Part shown: one piece after another, positions 1 to 43,384 of the stretch
Numbering within the stretch: position 1 is the stretch's first letter
How the letters are laid out: each line of letters starts with the position of its first letter
Origin: Chitinophaga vietnamensis
GTDB lineage: Bacteria; Bacteroidota; Bacteroidia; Chitinophagales; Chitinophagaceae
Assembly (NCBI RefSeq): GCF_902167635.1
Contig: NZ_CABHMS010000001.1
Span: 434,001 to 498,000, forward strand
Length of the DNA: 64,000 nucleotides
Direction: 5' to 3'
Position numbers and translations under genes: made by a program
The notes under the pieces: model-generated
The model's input: only the letters and a program-made list of their open reading frames with translations
Told to the model about the DNA's origin: nothing
Databases searched by the model: none

Positions 1-40
1 TCATTAAATCCTGAGCCAGATTAATGCGAGCGAAGCGAGC
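1..40. repeat. Partial copy (one arm) of palindromic repeat family A
   Basis: These bases match the outer right arm of the long palindromes at 27953-28179 and 43104-43375: the block TCATTAAATCCTGAGCC followed by the terminal motif GCGAGCGAAGCGAGC. The rest of the element lies left of the window. It ends three bases before the stop codon of the porT-like gene (complement of 44-46), so like the other copies it abuts a gene 3' end. Confidence 0.8.
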
Positions 41-13941: not shown

Positions 13942-14019
13942 TTTACGGATTTATGAATTTATAGCAAATCTCAGCTTCGTCATAAATTCATAAATCCGTA
14001 AATCAAAAAATCCGTAAAT
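13925..14019. repeat. Palindromic repeat family B, copy 1
   Basis: Two perfect 38-base arms (13925-13962 and 13982-14019) flank a 19-base loop. The arms are built from variants of GATTTACGGATTTATG. The left arm contains the stop codon of the GNAT gene. The right arm ends 18 bases from the stop of the convergent Gln-rich lipoprotein gene, so the element fills the space between two 3' ends and could terminate both transcripts. Confidence 0.9.
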
Positions 14020-14037
14020 CAAAAAATCCTCAAATAT

Positions 14038-25470: not shown

Positions 25471-25544
25471 AACAAAGGTGCTCGTCTTTGATCGCGGATA
25501 TACAAAAAATGCTAAATTCAAGGATCAGTAAAACGACAATCGCT

Positions 25545-27952: not shown

Positions 27953-28179
27953 GCTCGCTTCGCTCGCGTTAATTTTGGCTCAGGATTTAATGATTGAAAG
28001 GATTAGCAGGATTTTTTATCAGGATTAATAAGGATTTGCGAAGATATCCGCGTAAGAAGCCCTTGAAGCGTTAGGAGCGCTTCAAGGGCTGAACCGAGAT
28101 AATCTTCGTAATCTTTTTTTAATCTTTATTAATTCTGATGAAAAATCCTGCTAATCCTTTCAATCATTAAATCCTGAGC
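27953..28179. repeat. Palindromic repeat family A, copy 2
   Basis: The left end carries the motif GCTCGCTTCGCTCGC, absent from the right end. The main arms (27978-28016 and 28141-28179) are perfect over 39 bases and continue with a few mismatches for about another 30. In the centre a 13-base hairpin (28058-28070 with 28078-28090, AGCCCTTGAAGCG) has a seven-base loop. The element begins nine bases after the fatty-acid enzyme stop codon. Both arms read GGATTAGCAGG at the position where copy 3 reads GGATTACCAGG. Confidence 0.92.
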
Positions 28180-28212
28180 AAGACAACCTTCGCATCATAC
28201 TAAATTTTTCCT

Positions 28213-29100
28213 ATGTCTATTCTCTCCCTGCACAACATTTCCAAAAGCTATGGCGCCGTGCAAGCCTTGTCGGACGTGAGTTTCGAGGTGCCGCGCGGCA
28301 GTGTGTTCGGCGTGCTTGGGCCTAACGGTAGCGGCAAAACGACGTTGTTGGGTATCGTTACTGATGTGCTCAAAGCCGACAGTGGCCATTTCCGGCTATT
28401 TGATCAGCCAGCTGGCGGAGCACAGCGCCGCCAGATAGGGACGCTGCTGGAAACGCCTAATTTTTATCATTATCTCAGCGGCCACAAAAACCTGGAAATA
28501 TCTGCCAGCGTGAAACAGCATGGCCACGGCGATATCGGCCGTGTGCTGGACCTGGTGGGCCTCAGCGCCCGGCAGCACTCCGCTTTCAAAACCTATTCAT
28601 TGGGGATGAAGCAACGCCTCGCCATCGGGGCAGCGCTGCTAGGTGATCCGGATGTGCTCATCCTCGATGAGCCTACCAACGGGCTGGATGCCGCTGGCAT
28701 CGCGGAAGTGCGGCAACTGGTGCGTGAGCTGGCGCAAGGAGGTAAAACCATTATACTGGCCAGCCACCTGCTCGATGAAGTAGAAAAAGTATGTACGCAC
28801 GTGGCGATATTGAGAGCCGGAAAGCTGCTACTGTCGGGCGCTGTAGACGAAGTGATCCCGCGAAGTGATTTTTTGGAACTTGCTGCGAATAATAATGAAG
28901 CGCTGGCAGACCTGCTGCGGCAATATCCTGGCTGTACCAGCGCCAATCTGCGGGATGGCCATGTAGTAGCGCTGTTCAGCCAACAGCCCGATGCTGCTGC
29001 CATCAACAGTTATTGCGCCGGAAAAGGCATCTGGCTCAAACGACTGCAGCTGCGCAAGAAAAGCCTGGAAACCGCATTCCTGGAAATCACTAATCCCTGA
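28213..29100 (+). CDS. ABC transporter ATP-binding protein
   Basis: The 295-residue ATPase of the NatA/CcmA type has Walker A GPNGSGKTT at about 36-44, the signature segment YSLGMKQRLAIGAALL, Walker B VLILDEPTNGLDAAG, and the switch His in ASHLLDEV. A C-terminal extension of some 80 residues follows, usual in drug- or lipid-export ATPases of this class. The permease gene follows after five bases, so the two form an exporter of unknown substrate. Confidence 0.93.
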   Translation: MSILSLHNISKSYGAVQALSDVSFEVPRGSVFGVLGPNGSGKTTLLGIVTDVLKADSGHFRLFDQPAGGAQRRQIGTLLETPNFYHYLSGHKNLEISASVKQHGHGDIGRVLDLVGLSARQHSAFKTYSLGMKQRLAIGAALLGDPDVLILDEPTNGLDAAGIAEVRQLVRELAQGGKTIILASHLLDEVEKVCTHVAILRAGKLLLSGAVDEVIPRSDFLELAANNNEALADLLRQYPGCTSANLRDGHVVALFSQQPDAAAINSYCAGKGIWLKRLQLRKKSLETAFLEITNP

Positions 29101-29105
29101 GTATC

Positions 29106-29882
29106 ATGAAACAAATTATTTATACCGAGTGGCTGAAAGTGAAGAGCTACCGTACCTTTTGGGCAATGCTGGCATTGGCCGTGATCATACCTGTGGCCGG
29201 CAATTATGTGATCGCCTATAATTTGAATAATAACCTGAAGGCCGCCGCCAGGTTCATCGGCGAGCCTTTCAGTTTTCCGGAAGTTTGGCTTACTACGGCC
29301 AGCATCAGTAGTTATATTTCGTCGTTGTATGGCCTGTTGCTGATCATCCTGGTGACCAACGAATTTACTTTCCGCACGCACCGCCAGAATATTATTGATG
29401 GCTGGGAGCGGCGGCAGTTTGTGTTTTCCAAATTGTTCTGGCTGGTGGTTCTGGCGCTCCTTTCTTTGCTGGTGGCCACTTTGACGGGGTTGATCATAGG
29501 GAGCGTTTATGGAACGAAATCATTCAGCCTGGAGGGTTACGACAAGGTGCTGATATATTTTATGCAAATGGTGATGATGCTGTGTATTGCACTGGTGGTA
29601 GCTATCTTTGCCAGGCGCGCGGGTATTGGCATCGTGATCTTCCTGGCATATACGATGATGCTGGAACAGTTGCTGGTGGTGATCCTGCAAAAGAATTTCG
29701 GAAAGATAGGCGGCCTGTTACCCATGCAAACCGGCGATGAGCTGCTGCCTTTTCCGGTGTTCGGCAAACTGGCGCATATGGGTGAGCAATATGTGGATGG
29801 CGTTTATATCACCGTGATGCTGGCCTGGATCGCATTGGCCATCTTCATCGTGTTCAGGAAGGTATTGCGCTCAGATCTATAA
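29106..29882 (+). CDS. ABC transporter permease
   Basis: The 258-residue protein has six hydrophobic segments (first at about 18-38, last at about 235-252) in the ABC-2 permease arrangement, with a cytoplasmic segment around FRTHRQNIIDGWERRQF after the second one, where coupling helices occur. It pairs with the ATPase immediately upstream. Nothing in the sequence indicates the transported compound. Confidence 0.88.
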   Translation: MKQIIYTEWLKVKSYRTFWAMLALAVIIPVAGNYVIAYNLNNNLKAAARFIGEPFSFPEVWLTTASISSYISSLYGLLLIILVTNEFTFRTHRQNIIDGWERRQFVFSKLFWLVVLALLSLLVATLTGLIIGSVYGTKSFSLEGYDKVLIYFMQMVMMLCIALVVAIFARRAGIGIVIFLAYTMMLEQLLVVILQKNFGKIGGLLPMQTGDELLPFPVFGKLAHMGEQYVDGVYITVMLAWIALAIFIVFRKVLRSDL

Positions 29883-29966
29883 GAAATACTATATATTTTA
29901 CATTCTTTTAAAGCAGAATGTTTGGCAGACAACTTATTTTTGTTGTATCAAGTTAAACCGGGAAAC

Positions 29967-30743
29967 ATGGCAAAACAGGAGCGATTAATATTAGTAACGA
30001 ATGATGACGGCATAACAGCACCAGGCATCAAGGCATTGATAGAGGCTGTGAGGCCATTGGGAAAAGTAGTGGTGGTGGCGCCAGACAGTCCGCAGTCCGG
30101 CAAAGGGCACGCCATTACGATCGGTATACCGCTCCGTTTGAACCAGGTGGAACTGTTCGAAGATGTGGAAGCCTGGCAGTGCTCCGGCACGCCGGTGGAT
30201 TGCGTGAAGCTCGCGCGCGACAAAATACTGCACCGCAAGCCGGATATCTGTGTAAGCGGTATCAACCATGGCGCCAACCATTCCATCAACGTGATTTATT
30301 CCGGCACAATGTCTGCGGCAATGGAAGCAGCCATTGAAGGCATTCCTTCCGTTGGTTTTTCATTTTTAGAATATAGCTTTGATGCAGATTTTTCACTGCC
30401 GGTAAAAGTGGCGCGGGAAGTAACGCAGCGCATGCTGGAAAGCGACCTGCCCGCAGGTACCTTGTTCAATGTGAATATCCCGATAGTAGCAGAAAAGGAT
30501 TTCAGAGGCGTGAAGATTTGTCGCCAGGCCGACGCCAAATGGGTAGAAGAATTTGATGAACGCCGCGACCCGCACGGGAAAAAATACTACTGGCTTACCG
30601 GTGAATTTAAAAACCGCGACACCGGTGAAGATACCGATGTATGGGCGCTTGAAAACAACTATGCATCACTGGTGCCTGTGCAATTCGATCTCACCAACTA
30701 TGGGCTGAAGAAGCAGCTGGAAGAAGAATGGAAGGAATTGTGA
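29967..30743 (+). CDS. surE: 5'/3'-nucleotidase SurE
   Basis: A 258-residue metal-dependent nucleotidase/survival protein. ILVTNDDG at the N-terminus supplies the metal-binding Asp pair, followed by VAPDSPQSGKGHAITIG and SGINHGANHSINVIYSGTM with the conserved Asn. The ATG at 29967 is chosen since the earlier TTG (29922) precedes a TATTTTTG -7 box (29935-29942). In many Bacteroidota surE is followed by a small membrane protein and lpxB, as here. Confidence 0.95.
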   Translation: MAKQERLILVTNDDGITAPGIKALIEAVRPLGKVVVVAPDSPQSGKGHAITIGIPLRLNQVELFEDVEAWQCSGTPVDCVKLARDKILHRKPDICVSGINHGANHSINVIYSGTMSAAMEAAIEGIPSVGFSFLEYSFDADFSLPVKVAREVTQRMLESDLPAGTLFNVNIPIVAEKDFRGVKICRQADAKWVEEFDERRDPHGKKYYWLTGEFKNRDTGEDTDVWALENNYASLVPVQFDLTNYGLKKQLEEEWKEL

Positions 30744-30785
30744 GATACAAACCGGTAATCGTTATATCGCCATTATAAATTTCGT

Positions 30786-31085
30786 ATGCTCAAAAAAGAC
30801 AATCTTTCATTAGGGATTTTGCTCGGGCTTTTTACGCCCATATTTGCATTTTTCCTGTATTACCTGCTGGTGATGGCGCCTAATCATGTAGCATTCTGGA
30901 AATTCATGGATGAATTGAAAGAGAACCGCCACCTGATCCCTAAACTCACCAGTATTTGCCTGCTGCTGAATGGCCTGGTGTTCTATCTTTACACCCGTAA
31001 CCGAAGGGATATTACCGCCAAAGGAATATTTCTCGTAACCATGCTGTATGCTATTGCCATACTGCTAATGAAACTGATCAGATAA
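30786..31085 (+). CDS. Small membrane protein between surE and lpxB
   Basis: The 99-residue protein has three predicted membrane helices (about 9-30, 52-70 and 79-96) and a short charged loop, FMDELKENRHLIPKL, between the first two. It has no known domain. Its fixed place between surE and lpxB suggests a role in the envelope, perhaps linked to lipid A synthesis, but this is only inferred from context. lpxB starts 10 bases after its stop. Confidence 0.75.
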   Translation: MLKKDNLSLGILLGLFTPIFAFFLYYLLVMAPNHVAFWKFMDELKENRHLIPKLTSICLLLNGLVFYLYTRNRRDITAKGIFLVTMLYAIAILLMKLIR

Positions 31086-31095
31086 TACAGATACT

Positions 31096-32205
31096 TTGAA
31101 ATATTACATTATTGCAGGAGAAGCCTCGGGAGATCTGCATGGAAGCAACCTTGTGAAACAATTGAAACAGCTGGATCCCGCTGCTGATATACGCAGCTGG
31201 GGCGGCGACCTGATGCAACAGGCAGGAGCCACCGTAGTAAAGCATTACAAGGAACTCGCCTTTATGGGATTTGTGGAAGTGCTGGCCAACCTGCGCACCA
31301 TCCTGCGCAACCTCGATTTTTGCAAACAGGATATCAAATCCTTCCAGCCCGATGTGCTCGTGCTCGTAGACTACCCCGGCTTTAACCTCCGCATTGCCGA
31401 ATGGGGAAAACAGCAAGGATTCAAGATCGTTTACTATATCTCTCCCCAGGTATGGGCCTGGAAAGAGAACCGCGTGAAAAAAATTCGCCAGTGTGTAGAT
31501 AAAATGCTCTGCATCCTGCCCTTCGAGAAAGCGTTCTACCACAAATGGAACTATGAAGTGGAATATGTTGGCCATCCGCTGGTAGGAGTGATAAAGGCGG
31601 CGAAAGAAAAACCTGCCGACCCGCCACTGGCCGATAAGCCCATCATCGCCGTTTTGCCCGGCAGCCGCAAACAGGAAGTAAGCGTGAAATTGCCCATCAT
31701 GCTCACCATGGCCAGGCACTTTCCAGACTACCAGTTTGTAGTGGCACAGGCCCCCAGCCTGGACGATCATTTCCTGCAAAGCCTCATCGGACAGCATTCC
31801 AATGTATCGATGGTGAAAAATAATACCTATGCATTGCTGCGCCAGGCAAAGGCAGCACTGGTTACTTCCGGCACCGCCACACTGGAAACAGCGCTCTTCG
31901 GCGTCCCCGAAGTAGTGTGCTACAAAGGCAATCCGCTATCTTATTTTCTCGCTAAAAAACTCATCAAAGTGAAATATATCTCACTGGTCAATCTCGTTAT
32001 GGATAAACCAGTGGTGACAGAACTCATCCAACACGACCTCACGGAAGACAAGCTGCTGAAAGAACTCAGCGCCCTGTTGCAGGAAAATGGGAAACGCCAA
32101 CAGGTGATGGCTGACTATGCCGACCTATGGCATAAACTGGGAGAGAAAGATGCATCCCGCCGCGCAGCGGAAGTGATCTATGATTACGCTGTTAATGGTG
32201 CCTGA
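31096..32205 (+). CDS. lpxB: Lipid-A-disaccharide synthase
   Basis: The 369-residue GT19 glycosyltransferase joins UDP-2,3-diacylglucosamine and lipid X into the lipid A disaccharide. The N-terminal KYYIIAGEASGDLHGS, the central YYISPQVWAWKENR and the segment VLPGSRKQEV are family hallmarks. The start is TTG: an in-frame stop lies at 31075-31077 and no ATG or GTG lies between it and the conserved N-terminus. The last 14 bases overlap the convergent DUF6728 gene. Confidence 0.93.
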   Translation: MKYYIIAGEASGDLHGSNLVKQLKQLDPAADIRSWGGDLMQQAGATVVKHYKELAFMGFVEVLANLRTILRNLDFCKQDIKSFQPDVLVLVDYPGFNLRIAEWGKQQGFKIVYYISPQVWAWKENRVKKIRQCVDKMLCILPFEKAFYHKWNYEVEYVGHPLVGVIKAAKEKPADPPLADKPIIAVLPGSRKQEVSVKLPIMLTMARHFPDYQFVVAQAPSLDDHFLQSLIGQHSNVSMVKNNTYALLRQAKAALVTSGTATLETALFGVPEVVCYKGNPLSYFLAKKLIKVKYISLVNLVMDKPVVTELIQHDLTEDKLLKELSALLQENGKRQQVMADYADLWHKLGEKDASRRAAEVIYDYAVNGA

Positions 32206-32362
32206 TCAATTTCACGATCAAAATAACCAACGCAATCAGGAACAACAGGATGGAAATACGGTTCATCCCGTGCATCATCGCTACAAACGTGGTTTTCGGC
32301 GCATTCGGATCTTTCTTTCCGATATACAGGTAGCGTAATATTTGTTGCCAGATACTTTTCAT
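32192..32362 (-). CDS. DUF6728-like small membrane protein
   Basis: A 56-residue protein opening MKSIWQQILRYLYIGKKDPN, with one C-terminal membrane helix (ISILLFLIALVILIVKLI). The opening matches the small Bacteroidota family DUF6728 as I remember it. The reading frame extends upstream to 32500, but the conserved part starts at 32362, which is taken as the start. It is convergent with lpxB (14-base overlap) and divergent from the beta-mannosidase gene. Function is unknown. Confidence 0.75.
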   Translation of the reverse strand: MKSIWQQILRYLYIGKKDPNAPKTTFVAMMHGMNRISILLFLIALVILIVKLIRHH

Positions 32363-32383
32363 CTTACAAAGATCGTAAAATCT

Positions 32384-32409
32384 ATTGCTCCCCAAAATCG
32401 GGGAGCAAT
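32384..32409. promoter_or_regulatory. Inverted repeat next to the glycosidase promoter (possible operator)
   Basis: ATTGCTCCCC and GGGGAGCAAT (10-base arms, six-base spacer) form a perfect inverted repeat in the gap between the divergent DUF6728 and beta-mannosidase genes, ending three bases before a TATTTTTG box. The location suits an operator that covers the promoter, although a hairpin role in RNA is possible. Confidence 0.5.
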
Positions 32410-32412
32410 GCT

Positions 32413-32420
32413 TATTTTTG
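32413..32420 (+). promoter_or_regulatory. Candidate -7 box of the beta-mannosidase operon
   Basis: TATTTTTG matches TAnnTTTG and lies 22 bases before the chosen ATG. No TTTG occurs at the expected -33 distance, where the inverted repeat sits instead, so activation by a protein bound there is conceivable. Confidence 0.45.
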
Positions 32421-32441
32421 GACCCACCGAAAAGGAAAGTC

Positions 32442-35039
32442 ATGAAATATTTACTACCAGGTCGCGCGCTCGTTGTGATCTTTTTTTTAACGTGTATCAC
32501 TAAATCGATTTATGCGCAGACCGATACCCTCAATAAGGGCTGGGAGTTTTCCCGTACCGATGAAAATAACTGGCGCAGCGCCACCGTACCCGGCACAGTA
32601 CACACCGACCTGATGGCGCATCAGCTTATTCCAGATCCTTTCATCGGCACCAACGAAAAAGCCGTGCAATGGGTAGATAAAAAAGACTGGCAATACCGCC
32701 GCACGTTGCATATCAACGCCGCACAACTGCAACAGGATGTAGTGGAGCTCGACTTTCTCGGCCTGGATACTTACGCTAAAATTTATGTGAACAACCGCCT
32801 CGCTGCACAAGCAGCGAACATGTTCACCGAACATATCATCAATATCAAATCCTTGCTGAAAGCGGGCGACAACGAACTGCGCATCGTGTTCGAAAGCCCT
32901 GTCAAACATGATATGCCGCTGTTCCTCCGCGACAGCCTGATCTATCCCGCAGGTAATGATGCCAGCGATATTCCACTGAGCATCTATGCCCGCAAGGCGC
33001 CTTATCACTATGGCTGGGATTGGGGCCCGCGGCTCGTTACGTCCGGTATCTGGCGCCCGGTGATCCTGCGTGCCTGGAGCAAAGCCATGATGCGCAACAT
33101 CTGGATCCAACAGCAGCAACTGGATGACAGCATTGCAAAAATGAATGCCGCCCTTACCATAGAAGCCACCACAGCAGGCACTTACAACGTGAATATCGAC
33201 GTGATCGATCCCTGGGGCCTCCATAACAAGATAACGACAACGGCTACACTGAAACCCGGTAACAATCATATCGATGTGCCTTTCAAAATTGAGCATCCTG
33301 TACGTTGGTGGCCCCGCGGAATGGGCCAGCAGAACGGCTATCGCGTGAATGTGGAACTTGCGCAAAACAATGAAGCGCTTGCTGTGGGCGGCTATAAAGT
33401 AGGACTGCGTACCATAGAAGTGGTGAACAAACCAGATAGTGCAGGAGAAAGTTTTTATGTGAAAGTGAATGGCCAACCGGTGTTCATGAAAGGCGCCAAC
33501 TACATTCCGCAGGATAATTTCCTGCCACGCGTAACCCGCCACACTTACCAGCAGCTGTTTGATGATATGGAGGAATCCAATTTCAACATGGTGCGCGTAT
33601 GGGGCGGTGGCATCTACGAAGACAATGATTTCTATTCCCTTGCCGATCAGAAAGGTATCCTTGTTTGGCAGGATTTTATGTTTGCCTGCACGCTCTATCC
33701 CTGGGATAGCAGCTTCCTGCAAAATGTAAAGGCAGAAGCGGAGTACAATATCCGCCGCCTGCGCAATCACCCTTCGCTGGCGCTGTGGTGCGGCAATAAC
33801 GAGATTGCCGTGGCCATCAAAAACTGGGGCTGGCAAAACGGTTACGCCTATACGGAAACACAATGGCAAAGCATGTTGCAGGGCTATGATAAACTGTTCA
33901 AAGAGCTATTGCCACAAGCCGTTACCAGCAATGATCCCGGACGTTTTTACTTTCATTCATCACCCATCAGCAACTGGGGAAAGAAAGAGGATTTCACTAA
34001 AGGCGATAACCATTACTGGGGCGTGTGGCATGGTATGGAATGGTTTGAAGCATTTAATACACATATTCCGCGGTTCATGAGCGAGTATGGCTTCCAGTCG
34101 TTTCCCGATATGGAAACCATCCGCCGTTTTGCCACGCCGGCGGATGAGGATATCTTTTCCAATGTGATGCAGGCCCACCAGAAAAGCCCTGCCAAAGGCA
34201 ATACGGCTATCAAAACATACCTGCTGCATTACTATAAGGAACCAAAAGATTTTTCATCTTTTGTATATATGAGCCAGGTGTTACAGGCAGAGGGCATGAA
34301 AATGGCCATAGAAGCGCATCGCAGGGCCATGCCTTATTGCATGGGCACCTTGTACTGGCAGCTGAACGATTGCTGGCCGGGACCGTCCTGGTCGGGCCGC
34401 GATTATTTTGGTCATTGGAAAGCCCTGCAATACTATGTGAAGAAGGCTTTCCAGCCGGTGATCCTCTCCAACATCATCGAAGCTGATCATCTCAAAACAT
34501 ACATTATCTCGGATACTATCTTGCCCATACCCACTTTCAAAAAGCCGGTCAATACCCTGGTGTTGAAGGCCATGGACCTCAGCGGAAAAGTATTCTGGAA
34601 GAAAGAACTGAAAGATATCGACGTAAAAAGCAACCGTAGCGAGGTGTTTAGCAGCATCCCCGTAAAAGAGATTTTACAGGGAAGAAACCCCGCAACGGTA
34701 ATATTCTACACACAATTGTCAAACGACAATAAGGAAACTGACCGGAAACTCTTTTACTTTGCCCATGCGAAAGAGATGCAGCTGGCGCAACCCAGGCTGG
34801 TACTGAATGTGAATGCGGTGGATGCATCAACGGTGGAAGTGACCATCAGTACAGACAAGTTTGCACGCAATGTTTGTTTGTCTTTAGACAAAACTTTATC
34901 CGGAGAACATTTTGAAGACAATTATTTCGATCTGTTGCCAGGGGAGAAGAGAACGGTGAGATTATCCACCGGCCGCTCCGCAGCAGCCGTCAAAAAGGGG
35001 TTGAAAGTAACCTCTTTGGTAGATGCTTATAAACGTTAA
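32442..35039 (+). CDS. Beta-mannosidase, glycoside hydrolase family 2
   Basis: The exported GH2 enzyme of about 865 residues releases terminal beta-linked mannose. It has a signal peptide with cleavage after IYAQ, an N-terminal jelly-roll, immunoglobulin-like domain and a TIM barrel. The acid/base Glu lies in WCGNNE (residue 454) and the nucleophile Glu in FMSEYGFQS (residue 548), with the HYGWDWGPR segment typical of beta-mannosidases. The ATG at 32442 follows AAAGGAAAG and gives a proper signal peptide. The alpha-L-fucosidase gene follows after two bases. Confidence 0.92.
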   Translation: MKYLLPGRALVVIFFLTCITKSIYAQTDTLNKGWEFSRTDENNWRSATVPGTVHTDLMAHQLIPDPFIGTNEKAVQWVDKKDWQYRRTLHINAAQLQQDVVELDFLGLDTYAKIYVNNRLAAQAANMFTEHIINIKSLLKAGDNELRIVFESPVKHDMPLFLRDSLIYPAGNDASDIPLSIYARKAPYHYGWDWGPRLVTSGIWRPVILRAWSKAMMRNIWIQQQQLDDSIAKMNAALTIEATTAGTYNVNIDVIDPWGLHNKITTTATLKPGNNHIDVPFKIEHPVRWWPRGMGQQNGYRVNVELAQNNEALAVGGYKVGLRTIEVVNKPDSAGESFYVKVNGQPVFMKGANYIPQDNFLPRVTRHTYQQLFDDMEESNFNMVRVWGGGIYEDNDFYSLADQKGILVWQDFMFACTLYPWDSSFLQNVKAEAEYNIRRLRNHPSLALWCGNNEIAVAIKNWGWQNGYAYTETQWQSMLQGYDKLFKELLPQAVTSNDPGRFYFHSSPISNWGKKEDFTKGDNHYWGVWHGMEWFEAFNTHIPRFMSEYGFQSFPDMETIRRFATPADEDIFSNVMQAHQKSPAKGNTAIKTYLLHYYKEPKDFSSFVYMSQVLQAEGMKMAIEAHRRAMPYCMGTLYWQLNDCWPGPSWSGRDYFGHWKALQYYVKKAFQPVILSNIIEADHLKTYIISDTILPIPTFKKPVNTLVLKAMDLSGKVFWKKELKDIDVKSNRSEVFSSIPVKEILQGRNPATVIFYTQLSNDNKETDRKLFYFAHAKEMQLAQPRLVLNVNAVDASTVEVTISTDKFARNVCLSLDKTLSGEHFEDNYFDLLPGEKRTVRLSTGRSAAAVKKGLKVTSLVDAYKR

Positions 35040-35041
35040 CT

Positions 35042-36481
35042 ATGAGAAAATTATTAATGGCTGCCGCCGTAGTGTTGATGGGCATCAACGCTGCACACGC
35101 GCAAAATGAAGAACCGCCCTACGTACCTGAAACCGACAAGGCGGTAGTGCAGAAGCTCGATGAATGGCAAGACTGGAAGTTTGGTCTGCTTATGCACTGG
35201 GGCCCTTACTCACAATGGGGAGTGGTGGAATCCTGGAGTATTTGCCCGGAAGATGAAGGCTGGACGCAGCGCAAGCCTACCGGCATTCCTTACTACGACT
35301 ATCTGAAAAAATATGAAGCGCTGGGGAAATCATTCAACCCGGTGAAGTTCAATCCTGAGCATTGGGCCAAAGCCGCCAGGGATGCAGGTATGAAGTACCT
35401 CGTATTTACTACCAAGCACCACGATGGTTACTGCATGTTCGATACCAAACAAACCGATTACCGCGTAACCGCGCCGGACGTAGCTTTCAGCAAGAACCCG
35501 CGCGCCAACATCGCCAAAGAAGTATTTGAAGCCTTCCGCAAAGAAGGTATCCATGCAGGCGCATATTTCTCCAAGCCCGACTGGCACACGGAATACTACT
35601 GGTGGAGCTATTTTCCGCCGAAAGACAGGAATGTGAACTACGACCTGAAAAAATATCCGGAGAGATGGGAGCAATTCAAACAGTACACTTATAACCAGAT
35701 TGAAGAGCTGATGACCGGTTACGGCAAGCTCGATATCCTTTGGCTGGATGGCGGCTGGGTGCGCCCGCTGAAGCAGCAGACCAAGGAATCGCTTTCCTGG
35801 AACCAGACCATGCCGCAGGATCAGGATATAGATATGGGCAAGATCGCGAAGATGGCGCGAAGCCATCAGCCTGGCCTGATCGTGGTAGACCGTAGTGTGC
35901 ATGGCCCTTATGAAAACTACCGTACCCCTGAGCAGCAGATCCCCGACAAGCCGCTGAGCTATCCCTGGGAAACCTGCATGACCATGGCTAATTCCTGGTC
36001 TTATGTGCCGGACGATAAATACAAATCCGTTACGGTGATCATTCACAACCTGGTGGATATTGTGGCCAAGGGCGGTAACTACCTGCTGAACGTAGGTCCT
36101 GGTCCTGATGGAGAGCTGCACGAGGCTGCCTATACCACGATGAAGGGCATCGGAGAGTGGATGCATGTAAACGGCGATGCGATCTATGGCACCCGTGCGG
36201 TGGCGCCTTATAAAGATGGCAAGGTTTGTTTTACACAGAAGAAAGATGGCAGCGTGTATGCGATCTACCTGCTGGATGAAAATGAGCAGCTGCCTGCCAG
36301 TATCTCTTTCAAGGGTATGAAGCCTGCCAAAGGTGCAAAACTGCAACTGTTAGAAACTGCTTCGAAGCTGGTGTGGAAAACCACGGGCGACCTTACCGAA
36401 GTAAAGGTGCCTGAAATCCTGCGCCAGAAAGGATTTAAGCACGCCGTGGCTATACGTATTTCTGCTGTGGAAAAGCTGTGA
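35042..36481 (+). CDS. Alpha-L-fucosidase, glycoside hydrolase family 29
   Basis: The 479-residue enzyme has a signal peptide ending AHAQ, the family segments KFGLLMHWGPYSQWG and TTKHHDGYCMFDT, and the nucleophile Asp in LWLDGGWVR (residue 236), followed by a C-terminal beta-sandwich. It releases alpha-L-fucose with retention. Start and upstream stop are two bases apart, so it is cotranscribed with the beta-mannosidase, which suggests joint attack on a glycan bearing both sugars, such as N-glycans. A terminator follows. Confidence 0.94.
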   Translation: MRKLLMAAAVVLMGINAAHAQNEEPPYVPETDKAVVQKLDEWQDWKFGLLMHWGPYSQWGVVESWSICPEDEGWTQRKPTGIPYYDYLKKYEALGKSFNPVKFNPEHWAKAARDAGMKYLVFTTKHHDGYCMFDTKQTDYRVTAPDVAFSKNPRANIAKEVFEAFRKEGIHAGAYFSKPDWHTEYYWWSYFPPKDRNVNYDLKKYPERWEQFKQYTYNQIEELMTGYGKLDILWLDGGWVRPLKQQTKESLSWNQTMPQDQDIDMGKIAKMARSHQPGLIVVDRSVHGPYENYRTPEQQIPDKPLSYPWETCMTMANSWSYVPDDKYKSVTVIIHNLVDIVAKGGNYLLNVGPGPDGELHEAAYTTMKGIGEWMHVNGDAIYGTRAVAPYKDGKVCFTQKKDGSVYAIYLLDENEQLPASISFKGMKPAKGAKLQLLETASKLVWKTTGDLTEVKVPEILRQKGFKHAVAIRISAVEKL

Positions 36482-36510
36482 ATTGATGTGATTTAACTGT
36501 GTATAAAACA

Positions 36511-36550
36511 AAAAAGAGGCTTCACTACCCCGTGAAGCCTCTTTTTTTTG
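36511..36550 (+). terminator. Rho-independent terminator of the glycosidase operon
   Basis: A perfect 15-base stem (36511-36525 with 36532-36546) with a six-base loop, followed by a T-run, 30 bases after the fucosidase stop. Confidence 0.92.
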
Positions 36551-36732
36551 TTTTTAAAGCAGCGTTAGAAATAACAACACGACCATGTTTAGCTGAATAA
36601 CAATTGAATAACCATTGATTAACTGATCCCGACTGGAATTTTACCAATCTTGCGAAATCTTAAACGAGAAAACGGAATTAATCATTAAGCACGAATAACT
36701 TATATCAGTAATCTGTATTCACTGACTGACAG

Positions 36733-37488
36733 ATGAATAAGAATCCTAGAATTTTATTGGTAGAGGACGACAAGATCTTCGGGAGCGTCGTCAGGAAGCA
36801 TCTGGAAGAAACCGGGTACCGGGTGGAGCACTGCATAAACGGAAAAGATGCCTGGGAGCAATTTCAGAAAACACGCTTTGATGTTTGTCTGCTCGATATT
36901 GTAGTGCCGGGAATGAACGGTTTTCAGCTGGCTAAGCACATCCGGGAGAAGAACACGCTGGTGCCGATCATCTTCTTTTCTTCCGAAAAAACGGAAGAGA
37001 AAGACCGTATTGAATGTTTCGATATTGGTGCGGATGCCTATCTTACCAAGCCTTTCAGCATCATGGAGCTGTTGCGGCGCATCCGTGTGTTCCTGAAATA
37101 CTCGCGGCCCCTCCGCTCGGAGCTGCTGATCGCCCATAATATCGGTAACCTGACCTTCCATTACCGGAAGCTCAAAATAATTGATAATGCGGAAAAGATC
37201 ACGGTGGGTAAGCTATCGCCGCTGGAAGCCCGCGTGATGCGCTATTTCTTCTCAAGGCCCAATACCGTTATCCGGCGGGAAGAGCTGCTGGTGAAGGTTT
37301 GGGGCAAGGTCGATTTTTCCAACGGCCGCAGCATGGACGTATTTGTGACCAAGCTACGCAAGCAGGTGAGGACCCACGTGCCTCAGATAGAGCTGGAAAC
37401 CTTGCACAACATGGGTTTGCGCCTGAAAGTACCAGATGGCGTGGTGATCGAGAAGGTTACCGTGCCCTTGCAGAACGTCATTAAATAA
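36733..37488 (+). CDS. OmpR-family response regulator
   Basis: The 251-residue regulator has a receiver domain with the acidic pair ED at 11-12, phosphorylation site Asp 55 in LLDIV and Lys 106 in LTKPFS, then an OmpR-type winged helix from about residue 150 (REELLVKVWGKVDFSNGRSMD). It resembles RprY-type regulators. No kinase is adjacent, and rsh starts 78 bases downstream on the same strand. The kinase at 20065 is a possible partner by type only. Confidence 0.92.
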   Translation: MNKNPRILLVEDDKIFGSVVRKHLEETGYRVEHCINGKDAWEQFQKTRFDVCLLDIVVPGMNGFQLAKHIREKNTLVPIIFFSSEKTEEKDRIECFDIGADAYLTKPFSIMELLRRIRVFLKYSRPLRSELLIAHNIGNLTFHYRKLKIIDNAEKITVGKLSPLEARVMRYFFSRPNTVIRREELLVKVWGKVDFSNGRSMDVFVTKLRKQVRTHVPQIELETLHNMGLRLKVPDGVVIEKVTVPLQNVIK

Positions 37489-37566
37489 TTCCCCGGAAGG
37501 CAGGGCTTTGCCGCTTTCCTGCTTCTGCTCTTCTTTCAGATTATATTTAATCGTAACTTTAAGCCA

Positions 37567-39810
37567 ATGGAAACAGTGGCAGTTCAAAAATATAATTTAG
37601 ACGAAGAGCAGGAAAAGAAAGAGATCGTACGTCATTACCGTGCTTTGCTAAGGGCGCTGAAACCGCGTTTGAAAAAGGGCGACAGGGAATTGGTACGCAC
37701 TGCTTTTGAAATGGCAGCAGATGCACATAAGGAGATGAGGCGCAAATCTGGCGAACCCTATATCCTGCACCCGCTGGCAGTGGCACAGATATGCGTGGAA
37801 GAGATCGGCCTCGGCGTACGCTCCGCCATCTGCGCACTGCTGCACGATACCGTGGAAGATACAGAGGTGACCCTGGAAGATGTGGAACGTGAATTTGGCA
37901 CCGAGATCGCCCACATCGTTGACGGTCTCACCAAAATCAGCACCGTCATCGATTCCAGCACCAGCACCGCACAAGCCGAAAATTTCAAAAAGATCCTGCT
38001 TACCCTCGCAGACGATCCCCGGGTGATCCTCATCAAGCTGGCCGACAGGCTGCATAACATGCGTACGCTCGACAGCATGAGCCGGGAAAAGCAATTGAAG
38101 ATATCTTCGGAAACCGTATTCATCTACGCCCCGCTGGCCCACCGTCTTGGCTTGTATAACATCAAGTCCGAGATGGAAGACCTGGCCATGAAATACACCG
38201 AACAACAGACCTACCGCGATATCGCACGCCGCCTCAAAGAAACGAAGCGCGAACGTACCCGCTATATCAACGAGTTCATCAAGCCTATCAAGGAAGTATT
38301 ACAGGAAGAAGGCTTCCACTTTGAAATATTCGGCAGGCCCAAATCCATCCACTCGATCCACAACAAGATCAAAACCAAAGGCGTAGCCTTCGAAGAAGTG
38401 TATGATCTCTTCGCGATCCGTATCATCCTGGACTCCCCGCTGGAAAAGGAAAAGGCCGATTGCTGGAAAGTATATTCCATCATCACCGATTTCTATCATC
38501 CCAGCCCCGAGCGTACGCGCGACTGGCTCAGCAACCCCAAATCCAATGGCTATGAGGCTTTGCACGTAACCGTGATGGGCCCGCAAGGTAAATGGGTGGA
38601 AGTGCAGATACGCTCCAAACGCATGAACGACTACGCCGAAAAAGGCGTGGCCGCTCACTGGCGTTACAAGGAAGGCGCCCAGAACCCGCAACAGGAGTCG
38701 AAATTCGATCAGTGGTTCACGCAGATCCGGGAGATATTGAGCAATCCGGATTCCAATACACTCGACTTCCTCGCCGATTTCAAAAGTAACCTCTTCACCG
38801 AAGAGATATACGTATACACGCCAAAAGGCGACCTGAAAATATTGCCGGTCAACTCCACCGCACTGGATTTCGCTTACTCCATCCACAGCGCCGTGGGCAA
38901 CAAATGTATCGGCGCAAAGGTGAACTACAAACTGGTGCCGCTCAGTCACAAGCTGCGCAGCGGCGACCAGGTGGAGATCATCACATCCAACAAGCAGAAG
39001 CCATCGGAAGACTGGCTCAATTTCGTGCTCACCGCCAAGGCCAAATCCAAGATCAAGGATGCGCTGAAAGAAGAGAAACGCAAAGTGGCCATGGACGGCA
39101 AAGCTGCGCTGGAACGCAAGCTCGATCATATGAAAGTGCCTGCCAGTCAGCATAACATCGCCGAACTGGTGCAGTTTTACAAGCAGCCATCCCCGCTCGA
39201 TCTGTACTACCAGATCGCGGTGAAGAATATCGACCTGAAAGAGCTGAAGGAGTTTTCACTGTTGGGCGATAAACTGGAGCCACCCAAGCCGGTGAAAGCG
39301 CCGGAACATGTGCCGGAGGAAGCAGTGAAGCATCATGTCACCTCCAAGAAAGATGCAGAGCTCATCATCTTCGGCGAAAGCTCCGACCGTATTGCCTATA
39401 AACTTGCCAACTGCTGCCGGCCCATCCCTGGCGATGACGTATTTGGTTTCATCACAGCCAGTGAAGGGCTGAAGATACATCGCACCAACTGTCCCAACGC
39501 AGCCCAGCTGCTGGCCAATTACGGCCATCGCGTGGTGAAAACCAAGTGGGTGAAGAACCGCGAGATATCCTTCCTCACCGGCTTGCGTATCATAGGTATG
39601 GACGATGTTGGCGTGATCCACAAAATCACCAATATTATCTCCGGCGAGCTGAAAGTGAATATCTCCGCCCTCAGCATCGAATCCAAAGAGGGCCTGTTCG
39701 AAGGCCTGATCAAGGTGTACGTGCACGACAAAGAAGAGCTGGACGAGCTGGTAGACCGGCTCAAAAAGCTGGATGGTATTCAATCTGTACAACGACTCGA
39801 AGAATCCTGA
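37567..39810 (+). CDS. rsh: Bifunctional (p)ppGpp synthetase/hydrolase (RSH)
   Basis: The 747-residue stringent-response enzyme has an HD hydrolase domain with LLHDTVEDT (His 93, Asp 94), a synthetase domain with EVQIRSKRMNDYAEKG and AAHWRYK, a TGS domain (YVYTPKGDLKILP) and a C-terminal ACT domain (TGLRIIGMDDVGVIHKIT). All hydrolase motifs look intact, so both activities are expected. The ATG at 37567 lies six bases after TAACTTTA, a near-consensus -7 box, implying a short leader. Palindrome B2 begins 13 bases after the stop. Confidence 0.95.
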   Translation: METVAVQKYNLDEEQEKKEIVRHYRALLRALKPRLKKGDRELVRTAFEMAADAHKEMRRKSGEPYILHPLAVAQICVEEIGLGVRSAICALLHDTVEDTEVTLEDVEREFGTEIAHIVDGLTKISTVIDSSTSTAQAENFKKILLTLADDPRVILIKLADRLHNMRTLDSMSREKQLKISSETVFIYAPLAHRLGLYNIKSEMEDLAMKYTEQQTYRDIARRLKETKRERTRYINEFIKPIKEVLQEEGFHFEIFGRPKSIHSIHNKIKTKGVAFEEVYDLFAIRIILDSPLEKEKADCWKVYSIITDFYHPSPERTRDWLSNPKSNGYEALHVTVMGPQGKWVEVQIRSKRMNDYAEKGVAAHWRYKEGAQNPQQESKFDQWFTQIREILSNPDSNTLDFLADFKSNLFTEEIYVYTPKGDLKILPVNSTALDFAYSIHSAVGNKCIGAKVNYKLVPLSHKLRSGDQVEIITSNKQKPSEDWLNFVLTAKAKSKIKDALKEEKRKVAMDGKAALERKLDHMKVPASQHNIAELVQFYKQPSPLDLYYQIAVKNIDLKELKEFSLLGDKLEPPKPVKAPEHVPEEAVKHHVTSKKDAELIIFGESSDRIAYKLANCCRPIPGDDVFGFITASEGLKIHRTNCPNAAQLLANYGHRVVKTKWVKNREISFLTGLRIIGMDDVGVIHKITNIISGELKVNISALSIESKEGLFEGLIKVYVHDKEELDELVDRLKKLDGIQSVQRLEES

Positions 39811-39823
39811 TAAAAATTTTTTG

Positions 39824-39910
39824 ATTTATGGATTTACGGATTTATGGATTGTATTGTGTTTTATGATCAACAAAACACAATACAATCCATAAATCCGTAA
39901 ATCCATAAAT
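39824..39910. repeat. Palindromic repeat family B, copy 2
   Basis: Two perfect 39-base arms (39824-39862 and 39872-39910) with a nine-base loop. Each arm combines GATTTACGGATTTATGG with a copy-specific segment, GATTGTATTGTGTTTT. It begins 13 bases after the rsh stop and ends 24 bases before the purA -7 box, so it separates two plus-strand genes. Confidence 0.92.
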
Positions 39911-39933
39911 TCAAAAATTTCAATTATTCGCCT

Positions 39934-39941
39934 TAATTTTG
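39934..39941 (+). promoter_or_regulatory. Candidate -7 box of purA
   Basis: TAATTTTG matches the -7 consensus 45 bases before the purA ATG. The expected -33 position falls just at the outer end of palindrome B2 and shows no TTTG. Confidence 0.4.
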
Positions 39942-39986
39942 CGTCTTCTTTTAAAGCAACAACCTCCGATAATTAATTAAATCATT

Positions 39987-41258
39987 ATGGTAGACGTTTT
40001 GTTAGGCCTGCAATGGGGCGACGAAGGTAAAGGTAAAATTGTGGACTATTTTGCCGGCAAGTACGACGTGATCGCCCGTTTCCAGGGCGGCCCGAACGCT
40101 GGTCACACATTGTATGTGAACGGACAGAAAGTAGTATTGCGTACTATTCCTTCCGGTGTATTCCATGAAAATACCGTTAACCTGATCGGTAACGGCGTGG
40201 TGCTCGACCCCGTAGCTTTCAAAAAAGAAAGTGAAGACATCGCGGCACTGGGCATTGACCTGACAAAAAATCTTTTTATAGCAGAAAAAACGCATATCAT
40301 TGTTCCTACGCATCGTGCGCTGGACAAGGCTTCCGAGCTGTCGAAAGGCACCGAGAAGATCGGTTCTACGCTGAAAGGCATCGGGCCTGCCTATATGGAC
40401 AAAACCGGCAGAAATGGTTTGCGCGTAGGTGATGTGCTGTCTGCCAATTTCGAAGAACTTTACAGTAAGCTGAAACAGAAGCACCTGCAGCTGCTTTCGC
40501 ACTACGATGTTACTGAGCTGAATGAAGATATTGCCAACTGGGAAGTTGAATTTTTCGACGCTGTGAAATTCCTCCGCACCATGAACGTGGTGAGCGGTGA
40601 ATACTTCATCAACGAGAAACTGAAAGCCGGCAAGAAGATCCTGGCAGAAGGCGCTCAGGGCAGCATGCTGGACGTGGATTTCGGTACTTATCCTTTCGTT
40701 ACTTCTTCCAACACTATATCTGCAGGGGTATGCACCGGTTTGGGTATCTCTCCTAAATGGATCAATGAAGTGATCGGTGTTACCAAAGCGTATTGCACCC
40801 GCGTGGGCAGCGGTCCTTTTCCTACCGAACTGCACGATGCTACAGGTGAAAAACTGCGCGCTGCAGGTCACGAATTTGGCGCTGTTACCGGCCGCCCGCG
40901 CCGTTGTGGCTGGATCGACCTGGTAGCCCTTAATTATACCTGCATGCTCAGCGGCGTTACCCAGCTGGTAATGACCAAGAGCGATGTGCTCGATGAGTTT
41001 GATGAAGTGCTGGCATGTACCGCCTACGAAATCGATGGAAAACAAACCAAAGAAATGCCATTCAATATTTGCAGCGCGAACATTACACCGGTATGGGAAA
41101 CCTTCAAAGGATGGAGCGATAAAACTTCTACCTGCAAGCAGTTCAATGAGTTACCGTCTGAGATGAAAGCATTCGTTTCAGCTGTAGATAATTATCTGGG
41201 CGTTCCCGTGAAATTCGTTTCCAACGGCCCGGGACGTGATCAGATACTCGAAAAGTAA
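39987..41258 (+). CDS. purA: Adenylosuccinate synthetase
   Basis: The 423-residue GTP-dependent enzyme joins IMP and aspartate in AMP synthesis. The N-terminal QWGDEGKGKIVD, then GGPNAGHT, the GIGPAYMDK segment and TGRPRRCGW near 300 are all conserved, as is the C-terminal VSNGPGRDQ. Length is normal. It stands between palindrome B2 and the acidic AT-hook protein gene. Confidence 0.98.
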   Translation: MVDVLLGLQWGDEGKGKIVDYFAGKYDVIARFQGGPNAGHTLYVNGQKVVLRTIPSGVFHENTVNLIGNGVVLDPVAFKKESEDIAALGIDLTKNLFIAEKTHIIVPTHRALDKASELSKGTEKIGSTLKGIGPAYMDKTGRNGLRVGDVLSANFEELYSKLKQKHLQLLSHYDVTELNEDIANWEVEFFDAVKFLRTMNVVSGEYFINEKLKAGKKILAEGAQGSMLDVDFGTYPFVTSSNTISAGVCTGLGISPKWINEVIGVTKAYCTRVGSGPFPTELHDATGEKLRAAGHEFGAVTGRPRRCGWIDLVALNYTCMLSGVTQLVMTKSDVLDEFDEVLACTAYEIDGKQTKEMPFNICSANITPVWETFKGWSDKTSTCKQFNELPSEMKAFVSAVDNYLGVPVKFVSNGPGRDQILEK

Positions 41259-41351
41259 ATCCAAAAAATTACGGAAAAAAAACGGCAAAAAAAATTTGGC
41301 GAATAAAAAAAACTATTAAAACTTTACGGCAAAGAAATAAGTGAACCTATT

Positions 41352-41801
41352 ATGAAATCAAAATCTGATAAAGAGAAAGAGACCAAAAAAACTACTTCTC
41401 CTAAGACTGAAAAAGACGCTCCCAAAGCTGCAGGCAAGCCTAAGAAAGAGGTGGATGAGGATGATGAAGATGGGGATGATGAGGAAGAAACAACTTCCAA
41501 ATCTACCGCTAAAAAATCAGATAAATCTTCTTCCAAATCCAAGCGTAAGGATGACGATGAAGATGATGACGATGAGGATGATTTCGAAGATGAAGAAGAT
41601 GCATGGGAGAAAGGAGATGAAGAGGATTACGATCCAGACTTTGAAGAATTTGATATGCCCAAGTCTAAAGGTAAACGTGGCCGCCCTGCTGGCAGCGGCG
41701 GTAAAAAAACCGATGACGACGACGATCTGGGCTTTGACGATGAATTCAAAGATATGGATCTCTTTAACGATCGTTTCGACGACGACGATGATGATTTTTA
41801 A
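41352..41801 (+). CDS. Acidic low-complexity protein with an AT-hook
   Basis: The 149-residue protein has a Lys-rich N-terminal third (about 1-33), then long Asp/Glu runs (about 34-100 and 121-149). Between the acidic blocks lies KGKRGRPAGSGGKK, with the AT-hook core RGRP at 109-112. No folded domain is evident. The combination of basic tail, acidic tract and AT-hook resembles HMGA-like proteins and the HMGA-like part of myxobacterial CarD. A DNA- or chromatin-associated role is inferred, not shown. Confidence 0.75.
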   Translation: MKSKSDKEKETKKTTSPKTEKDAPKAAGKPKKEVDEDDEDGDDEEETTSKSTAKKSDKSSSKSKRKDDDEDDDDEDDFEDEEDAWEKGDEEDYDPDFEEFDMPKSKGKRGRPAGSGGKKTDDDDDLGFDDEFKDMDLFNDRFDDDDDDF

Positions 41802-41863
41802 GCATTAAAACGATTATTATCAGGATATTTCACACATTCCCGGTTGATGATCAAAAAATATTT

Positions 41864-41910
41864 AAACAGCAAATGTTGAATTGGTGTTCCCAGTTCAACA
41901 TTTGTTGTTT
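41864..41910 (+). promoter_or_regulatory. Long hairpin directly upstream of the pabB start codon
   Basis: Bases 41864-41884 and 41890-41910 pair along 21 positions (19 Watson-Crick, two G-U) with a five-base loop, and the ATG at 41912 begins two bases later. In mRNA this would cover the ribosome-binding region. It could also end transcripts of the acidic protein gene, although only TTT follows. Confidence 0.65.
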
Positions 41911-41911
41911 A

Positions 41912-43123
41912 ATGGACAATAATAACTATCCCTCCCCTTATCATCAATACGAAGCTATTCTCGCAGCAGATGCAGTAGCCAACCTCGAAATGCCGGCCGG
42001 TAAAGCATTTCCTGCCTTGCAGCAGTTTTACGATCTACACCGCGACTGGTTGTTCGGACACCTGTCCTATGATCTCAAGAACGAGACGGCGCCAGGACTG
42101 TACTCCCGTCATCGCGATGGCATCGGCTTCCCTGACCTGTATTTCTTCCAGCCACGTTATGTGCTGCTGCTGGAAGCGGGGCGGGTAAGTATCGGCGGAC
42201 TGGCGCTCACACGGGCTGCCGCCAGCGAAATTTACCAGACCTGTTTACGTATGCCCGTTACCGTTAGTGAGGCGGTAATTGCGCCGCAGCCTTTGCAGTC
42301 GCGCCTCGGTCACAGCGACTATATCGCAGCCGTAAAAGCCTTGCAGGCGCATATCCTGCGGGGCGATTGCTATGAAGTGAACTTCTGCCGCGAGAGCTAT
42401 CTCGAAGGGGTGAGCGTAGACCCTGCAGCACTGTTCAAACGGCTCAATGCCTTGTCGCCCGCGCCTTTCGCGGCCTACTACCGCCTGCATCACCGGCATA
42501 TGGCCTGCTCCAGCCCGGAACGATTCCTGCACAAGAACGGTCAGCAGCTGATATCACAGCCGATCAAAGGCACCAGCCGGAAAGATACTGACCCCGCTAC
42601 CGACCGGCAGTTACAGGAATTGCTGCGCAACAATCCCAAGGAGCGTGCAGAGAATATCATGGTGGTAGATCTCGTACGTAACGACCTTTCACACACCGCC
42701 GTACGCGGCAGCGTGCAGGTGGCGGAGCTCTGCGGCATCTATTCATTTGCGCATGTACATCATATGATCTCCACGGTAACAGCCGAATTGTCGCCACAGC
42801 AACCGCTGTCGGCCGCCATCAGCCAGGCTTTCCCGATGGGCTCCATGACAGGCGCCCCCAAAATACGCGTCATGGAACTGATTGAAACATACGAGCAAAC
42901 CCGCCGTGGGCTTTACTCCGGCGCCGTTGGCTACATCACGCCCGAAGGCAATTTCGATTTCAATGTAGTGATCCGCAGTATCCTGTACAACGCTGCCAGC
43001 CAATACCTCTCCTTCCAAACCGGCTCGGCCATCACCTTCTACAGCGATCCCGAAAAAGAATGGGAAGAATGCCTGCTCAAAGCAGACGCGCTGAAACGCG
43101 CGTTGCTCGCTTCGCTCGCGTAA
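41912..43123 (+). CDS. pabB: Aminodeoxychorismate synthase component I (PabB-like)
   Basis: A chorismate-binding enzyme of about 403 residues. The segments GDCYEVNFCRE, SSPERFLH, QPIKGTSRKDTD, ENIMVVDLVRNDL and GSMTGAPKIRVMELIE are those of the PabB/TrpE family, with the KGT motif Lys that favours PabB. It makes 4-amino-4-deoxychorismate for folate. An in-frame ATG at 41873 lies within the upstream hairpin, so 41912 is preferred. The C-terminal LLASLA and the stop codon come from palindrome A3. Anthranilate synthase is a less likely alternative. Confidence 0.85.
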   Translation: MDNNNYPSPYHQYEAILAADAVANLEMPAGKAFPALQQFYDLHRDWLFGHLSYDLKNETAPGLYSRHRDGIGFPDLYFFQPRYVLLLEAGRVSIGGLALTRAAASEIYQTCLRMPVTVSEAVIAPQPLQSRLGHSDYIAAVKALQAHILRGDCYEVNFCRESYLEGVSVDPAALFKRLNALSPAPFAAYYRLHHRHMACSSPERFLHKNGQQLISQPIKGTSRKDTDPATDRQLQELLRNNPKERAENIMVVDLVRNDLSHTAVRGSVQVAELCGIYSFAHVHHMISTVTAELSPQQPLSAAISQAFPMGSMTGAPKIRVMELIETYEQTRRGLYSGAVGYITPEGNFDFNVVIRSILYNAASQYLSFQTGSAITFYSDPEKEWEECLLKADALKRALLASLA

Positions 43124-43375
43124 TTTGGGCTCAGGATTATAATGATTGAAAGGATTACCAGGATTTTTTTTACAGGATTAATAAAGATTAAAGGAGATTG
43201 GCGGGAAGATATTTGCGACGATAGCCCTTGAAGCGCTCAAAGCGCTTCAAGGGCTGAAACCTCGTTAATCTCCTCCATCAATCTCCTTTAATCTTTATTA
43301 ATCCTGTAAAAAAAATCCTGGTAATCCTTTCAATCATTATAATCCTGAGCCCAAATTACGCGAGCGAAGCGAGCA
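43104..43375. repeat. Palindromic repeat family A, copy 3 (complete)
   Basis: Two perfect 97-base inverted arms (43104-43200 and 43279-43375) enclose 78 bases with a central 15-base hairpin (43223-43237 with 43241-43255, loop CAA). Each arm runs from the terminal motif GCTCGCTTCGCTCGC through GGCTCAGGATTATAATG to GGAGATTG. The left end encodes the last residues and stop of pabB. The right end stops ten bases from the stop of the convergent epimerase gene. Confidence 0.95.
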
Positions 43376-43384
43376 TCACGAGCA

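Follow-up and report, generated by a model that had tools for sequence, protein, structure and literature searches.

The question raised by the 64,000-nt stretch of the Chitinophaga vietnamensis genome analyzed here (referred to as the window) is why the two arms of each long palindrome agree with each other while the copies of the palindrome differ. Copy 2 of this palindrome occupies 27953..28193 and copy 3 occupies 43105..43374, and positions 1..40 hold the right end of copy 1, the whole of which lies at C1:433788-434040; no strand is assigned to these elements. As an earlier note on this DNA had stated, both arms of copy 3 contain GGATTACCAGG (43152-43162, with the reverse complement at 43317-43327) and both arms of copy 2 contain GGATTAGCAGG (28000-28010, with the reverse complement at 28147-28157), where the strings and coordinates were exact; CAGGATTATAATG and CAGGATTTAATG were also each found in both arms of their own copy. 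The comparison of sequences described below indicates that these elements probably belong to a family of approximately 100 mobile, mostly gene-less palindromes at the 3' ends of genes, the arms of which would be kept alike by template-switch copying in hairpins.

When up to 3 mismatches were allowed, a 25-nt arm pattern gave 106 matches on one strand and 102 matches on the other strand of the 6.3-Mb genome, and the same pattern read backwards gave none. These half-arm matches correspond to about 100 palindrome copies; the median length is 210 bp for the element and 100 nt for the arm. Copies were gathered among the matches listed for the arm pattern and two narrower patterns, and 89 stretches of the same genome were fetched, from which 83 arm pairs were obtained; no arm motif was found in one stretch (L065) with 4 substitutions allowed, and 16 unpaired arm matches at contig ends, in half copies, and in L105 were left out. 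The removal of three pairs (L058, a duplicate match; L106, an odd pair; and L116, an inverted duplicate of L115) left 80 pairs, and L127 was dropped for its short flank, which gave the 79 two-armed copies analyzed below. In later steps, one of the 79 copies had no anchor, six had no variable box, and 39 of 78 were used for the tests of the element ends. Both flanks of the central hairpin were recognized in 31 of 35 cases, and 25 oriented copies from those were aligned.

Over 76-nt arms, the difference was 4.15 edits within a copy and 14.8 edits between copies, and the two arms were identical in 26 of the 79 copies. When the arms were re-paired in 20,000 rounds, the lowest mean was 13.15 edits; therefore, the agreement within copies is not due to chance, and the pattern that the earlier note had described for two copies extends over the genome. 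The two arms agreed in the variable box between CAGGATT and GATT in 65 of 73 copies, compared to 8.7 in shuffles, although 19 states of the box occurred among the left arms. The length of the T-run was equal between the arms in 62 of 79 copies, compared to 23 in shuffles. An independent count of the covariation in the 25 aligned copies gave 0.192, compared to 0.062 after shuffling and at most 0.044 when the partners were slid. The agreement holds in the arm body and often fails elsewhere: mismatches reached 18% in the outermost bin and 1.4% in the arm body (63 of 4379 positions), and the outer ends and the loop-proximal stretches often disagreed between the arms. Under a simple balance, the mismatch of 1.4% in the arm body would correspond to copying that is approximately 140 times faster than mutation per site.

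Arm-to-arm copying could produce this pattern in the following way. The single strands of a copy would fold as long hairpins, and one arm would mutate or recombine with another copy. The polymerase would then sometimes switch template in the hairpin and copy the opposite arm, which places the change in both arms, and a switch from strand to strand would invert the loop. Because changes are spread to both arms, the arms of one copy would evolve together while the copies drift apart. An excess of paired changes, which the earlier note had named as the sign of such homogenization, was indeed observed. The most similar copies were matched as sister pairs with each copy used once, and the resulting 22 independent pairs showed 50 paired changes and 13 single-arm changes in the arm body, where 1.3 paired changes were expected by chance. 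The six closest sister pairs showed seven paired changes and one single-arm change in the arm body, and over the entire element the counts were 74 paired and 69 single-arm changes, with 2.2 paired changes expected. The 13 single-arm changes indicate that unpaired intermediates exist, as a minority in the arm body.

Paired changes can also be produced by selection for base pairing, which was the other explanation offered in the earlier note; in the transcribed RNA, a 3'-end or terminator hairpin would keep its arms complementary through compensatory mutation. Copy 3 is predicted to fold with very high stability (−218.3 kcal/mol, z −30.7), and the location at gene ends given below is also in line with this explanation. 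However, G·U pairs would be expected on the transcribed strand after compensation in RNA, and the messenger RNA (mRNA) strand of the tandem copies had 15 G·U and 16 A·C mismatches, that is, wobble without preference, which counts against it. In the 25 aligned copies, two-sided changes amounted to 124 cells, whereas one-sided changes that kept a standard pair were rare (11 cells). The paired changes in the arm body consisted of 14 transitions and 36 transversions, and PMC8604942, citing Dutra and Lovett 2006, describes transversions as favored in bacteria. An odd inner-arm segment was present in both arms of seven copies, three with AATTTATTGATTT and four with TTGATTTAAN, and stepwise compensation is hard to invoke for an inner segment replaced symmetrically. 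No terminator-like site (intrinsic terminator) was found around copy 2. With these results and the loop inversion described next, selection for RNA pairing appears quite unlikely as the cause of the arm agreement, and arm-to-arm copying is the better supported of the two explanations.

The central hairpin has a stem of 14–15 bp and a loop of three bases; with the orientation set by the unequal flanks of the hairpin, the loop was TTG in 17 of 31 copies and CAA in 12. In copy 2, it lies at 28058..28090 (AGCCCTTGAAGCG..CGCTTCAAGGGCT), and in copy 3 the 15-bp hairpin lies at 43223..43255 with the loop CAA at 43238-43240 (strand unassigned in both). Loop inversion is named as a footprint of template switching in PMC8604942 and PMC8794818, and the latter describes it as rare in ribosomal RNA (rRNA). 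The presence of both loop orientations can be regarded as a signature of template switching and would be the most telling point against selection for pairing. Relative to the genes, the loop region was sense in eight and antisense in five of 13 tandem copies, which shows no clear strand preference. The inversion also bears on the possibility that the assembler or polishing equalized the arms. Several contigs do end within palindromes; however, a three-base inversion beside unequal flanks approximately 15 nt away would be hard to obtain by read collapse, the variant states vary between copies, and other genomes show the same pattern, so that an assembly artefact is hardly credible. Among the palindromes of this style inspected in four congeners, the majority likewise had matching arms that differed from copy to copy. 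The central hairpin itself occurs 113 times in the genome and was found in none of 33 congeners, and in a contig scan, similar motifs were found at four loci of other organisms, three of which were judged by eye only.

The position of the copies relative to genes was determined by a simple open reading frame (ORF) rule, with no genome background computed, according to which the neighboring genes are convergent for 42 of the 79 copies, on the same strand for 31, and divergent for six. A gene 3' end lies within 15 nt of the palindrome in 64 of the 79 copies; this distance applies to 89 of 115 adjoining 3' ends, compared to 11 of 43 adjoining 5' ends. For the junction of copy 2, 29 relatives were fetched, 28 of which had the orthologous gene pair, and the palindrome was absent from the spacer at the same junction in all 28 congeners, where ten spacers were 7–16 bp. 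For the junction of copy 3, 27 of the 29 relatives fetched keep the convergent neighbor, and the stops overlap or are at most 10 bp apart in 22 of the 27 (a value of −423 clearly reflects a scoring error); since the longest spacer is 79 bp, none of them can hold the palindrome. As judged from these orthologous junctions, copies 2 and 3 are shown to be insertions. A target-site duplication of at least 3 nt was found in 0 of 39 copies, where 1.2 were expected by chance. Symmetry of at least 5 nt past the element ends was found in three of 39 copies, where 0.2 were expected, and it was given no weight because the flanks have a weak GATT..C-like consensus in common.

One copy of the family encloses a gene. 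The single match to PF13366 in the genome (C8 160830-161171) lies between the arms of the copy at L136:1405-2029, and these arms are of the same palindrome family, 491 nt apart and 95% complementary. The ORF scored 131 bits against the TIGR04256 profile (cut-off 35) and 128 bits against the PF13366 profile (cut-off 22), and on these scores the protein is a member of the GxxExxY / PDDEXK_3 family and a putative nuclease of the PD-(D/E)XK family. In an alignment of the proteins from 20 of the 42 GxxExxY loci described below, the E and Y of the GxxExxY motif and the D, E, and K of PD-(D/E)XK were invariant in all 20 sequences. No solved structure related by sequence to the protein was found at E values up to 1, and no transposase was seen in L136, where the GxxExxY ORF was the sole ORF scanned against the family libraries. 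The search for this gene followed from the idea that GxxExxY genes may lie in palindromic repeats; a literature search by the names GxxExxY, PF13366, and PDDEXK_3 found no paper placing such proteins in palindromes, and no reported role was found in the searchable literature on the family. The gene may be part of the machinery by which the palindrome family spreads, and its product may have a role in mobility or in the likeness of the arms.

The association was examined across the genus and the phylum, the latter taken as Bacteroidota. PF13366 was present in 12 of 34 genus genomes and in 75 of 148 sampled phylum genomes, and 42 GxxExxY loci were tested, consisting of 12 from the genus and 30 from the phylum, where the 30 were the best matches rather than a random draw and the degenerate matches L209 and L210 (scores 20 and 26) were excluded. 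The inverted match between the flanks exceeded all 100 dinucleotide shuffles in 34 of the 42 GxxExxY loci compared to 0 of 58 control loci, and at least 95 shuffles in 38 and five loci, respectively, where the control loci lay around two other genes of the genus and were not phylum-wide. Against a null of mismatched partners, 0 of 42 loci were above the 99% point, which in our view is because loci of one palindrome type have arms in common. The mean direct-repeat score of the flanks was 53.5, which is higher than the mean inverted score of 42.5. The arms of the present family have a 9-bp period (lag-9 identity of 0.529 compared to an expected value of approximately 0.29), and for the other GxxExxY loci whose flanks scored above 28, the left arms also showed a 9-bp period (0.402 compared to 0.288, z 8.8).

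Nuclease clades tend to have a 9-bp unit of their own, and these units are GATTNNNNN, CGCAAAGNN, CACAGAGNN, and CGCGGATNN. On the nuclease tree, the unit type changed 8 times compared to 17.3 times in shuffles, and 0 of 200 shuffles were as low; the five GATT-type loci formed one clade, and the AAAG and AGAG types were intermixed. In the genus, one deep nuclease clade has GATT-type arms and another has CGCAAAG-type arms. Seven CGCAAAG-type loci that represent one inherited site contribute to the clustering of unit types on the tree, and in the tree five of the 42 loci were omitted because the filter left no protein, L214 was omitted for lack of the motif, and L234 was re-labelled by hand from GATT to GGAT. 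In four genomes, the arm of the gene-bearing copy best matched a gene-less copy of its own genome among the 13 loci compared, with scores of 98, 83, 64, and 47, where the lowest has a small margin over 44.

The partnership of GxxExxY genes and palindromes is the novel part of this work. A tentative reading, which we hold to be somewhat short of even probability, is that the palindromes are gene-less copies of a new selfish element, a palindrome of 9-bp units the full form of which carries the GxxExxY nuclease. The substrate of this nuclease would be a hairpin or cruciform of its own units; the enzyme would drive copying into gene ends and promote arm copying by opening the hairpin. If the partnership is true, a nuclease family of 75 of the 148 phylum genomes would gain the hairpin of its cognate 9-bp unit as a testable substrate, and a candidate mobility enzyme would be available for a common type of bacterial palindrome.

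It must also be considered that the arms are made alike only once. New copies could be made perfect on insertion by fold-back synthesis, after which the arms only decay, and the differences between copies would then be parental. The identical arms of 26 of the 79 copies fit this explanation, as do the paired changes, which were observed between sister copies at different sites, and the hybrid ends, which are consistent with recombination between copies. The inherited site noted above bears on the same point. Seven of the 12 genus GxxExxY loci are one inherited CGCAAAG-type site, where the upstream neighbor matches in all seven species and the downstream neighbor matches in six by blastp and in L204 by eye. 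Across the seven species, the similarity to the own partner was larger than that after re-pairing, and 52 of 5040 permutations were as good, as calculated with untrimmed flanks whose right lengths were set by hand to 215, 150, or 95 nt. The arms of this other palindrome type still fit their own partners better, which counts modestly against likeness acquired only on insertion and modestly supports copying after insertion. Likeness acquired only on insertion is judged improbable, although it retains an appreciable share of the probability. We infer that arm-to-arm copying, with template switching as its likely form, is the cause of the arm agreement and that it probably continues after insertion in this species.

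Several observations weigh against template-switch copying of the arms. In most of the long copies, the asymmetric stretch that flanks the central hairpin, up to the outer stem, still differs between its two sides, which free copying should erase. The inner arms were of two different classes in 13 of 79 copies, and the terminal 7-mers were unlike in 10 of 39. At the inherited site, L198 and L200 were clearly contrary to the similarity of own partners, and for only three left arms and two right arms of the seven was the own opposite arm closer than any arm on the same side in the other species. Over the entire element, transitions made up 43 of 69 single-arm changes and 25 of 74 paired changes. 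Within the arm body, the contrast varies with the cut (p of 1.0, 1.0, 0.10, 0.018, and 0.049 at 0.92, 0.88, 0.86, 0.82, and 0.78, respectively) and could be ascribed to saturation of variable sites.

The closest known process is quasipalindrome correction by template switching, which is described in E. coli, yeast, and rRNA stems as homogenizing arms, inverting spacers, and changing several mismatches at once (PMC8604942; PMC8794818). The present family resembles it in that arms are more alike within than between loci through paired changes and in that the spacer between matching arms is inverted, as in the TTG and CAA loops. In contrast to the known cases, a mobile family of approximately 100 long palindromes is concerned here, so that one genome provides many parallel cases of template switching. 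Studies of template switching in hairpins usually concern single hotspots; in a genome with about 100 palindromes that diverge from one another, the rate of the process, the ends of its tracts, and its preferences for particular bases become measurable from sequence alone.

Among repeat families, repetitive extragenic palindromic (REP) sequences and bacterial interspersed mosaic elements (BIME) are described as palindromic and intergenic, mostly at convergent or same-strand junctions with ends near stop codons, and as including REP dimers nested in long palindromes and G-T stem pairs taken as support for an RNA role (PMC3733652). REP/BIME, with their REP-associated tyrosine transposase (RAYT), share with the present family the palindromic form and the intergenic location near gene 3' ends. 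They differ in that the whole unit is 20–40 bp, compared to the median arm of 100 nt here, and in that G-T pairs are cited for an RNA role, whereas wobble here is without preference. An origin from RAYT/REP was considered and rejected: the sole gene found to match PF01797 (Y1 transposase), in L137, has different repeats of its own (CGCCCC..GGGGCG) in its flanks. This IS200-like (Y1) transposase gene, at L137:1399-1881 with its flanks, is single-copy and lies amid arrays of these short repeats. Enterobacterial repetitive intergenic consensus (ERIC) sequences are small intergenic palindromic repeats. Miniature inverted-repeat transposable elements (MITEs) and ERIC/RU repeats are described as small, palindromic, multi-copy, and intergenic (PMC2229807, PMC2759123, PMC10969869), features that MITEs have in common with the present family; MITEs differ in their target-site duplication, and the gene-bearing copy here encodes a protein of the PD-(D/E)XK nuclease family. 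A MITE shares its inverted termini with a parent element that encodes the mobility enzyme; L136 has the family arms around a protein that passes both GxxExxY cut-offs and keeps the PD-(D/E)XK residues, and this protein may have a role in mobility.

In the window, an inverted-repeat search placed the arms of copy 2 at 27978..28036 (plus strand) and 28121..28179 (minus strand), with a length of 59 nt and a match of 95%, and those of copy 3 at 43092..43200 (plus) and 43279..43387 (minus), with a length of 109 nt and a match of 95%. The two ends of copy 2 differ from each other, where the left end is of the GCTCGCTTCGCTCGC type and the right end of the ...AGACAACCTTCGC type; copy 1 also has ends of two types, and copy 3 has the GCTCGCTTCGCTCGC type at both ends. 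Copy 3 encodes the final residues (..LASLA*) of a chorismate-binding enzyme gene (41873..43123, plus strand), and the stop of the convergent epimerase-family gene (43385..44308, minus strand) abuts it. A 3-hydroxyacyl-CoA dehydrogenase/enoyl-CoA hydratase gene (25488..27944, plus strand) ends 8 nt ahead of copy 2, and downstream of copy 2 lies an ABC transporter ATPase gene (28213..29100, plus strand), which we take to be gldA-like. At the place of copy 2 upstream of the gldA-like gene, L139-L145 and L147 have an unrelated hairpin of approximately 47 nt (GGGAAATG..GCATTTCCC or a variant). No structured RNA family matched in the window (Rfam 15, gathering score).

Two further palindromes of the window, at 13920-14040 and 39814-39920, consist of GATTTACG-like units with an 8-bp period and are located at gene ends, and a long run of CTG/TTG-like repeats at 14123-14485 lies in a minus-strand ORF as a glutamine-rich coding repeat. 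Elsewhere in the draft genome, contigs break in or at palindromes at the ends of C2, C3, C5, C7, C9, and C13 and at the starts of C4 and C9, where the end of C2 falls at a central hairpin. The palindrome at L115 recurs at L116 (C7 near 27975 and 96669, respectively) together with its near flanks but in opposite orientation, which represents either an inverted duplication or an assembly effect. In L105:4038-7804 (C4:634737-638503), two half palindromes 3.7 kb apart enclose an 877-residue protein with a carboxypeptidase-regulatory-like domain and a 123-residue ORF, which would be either cargo or an insertion into a palindrome.

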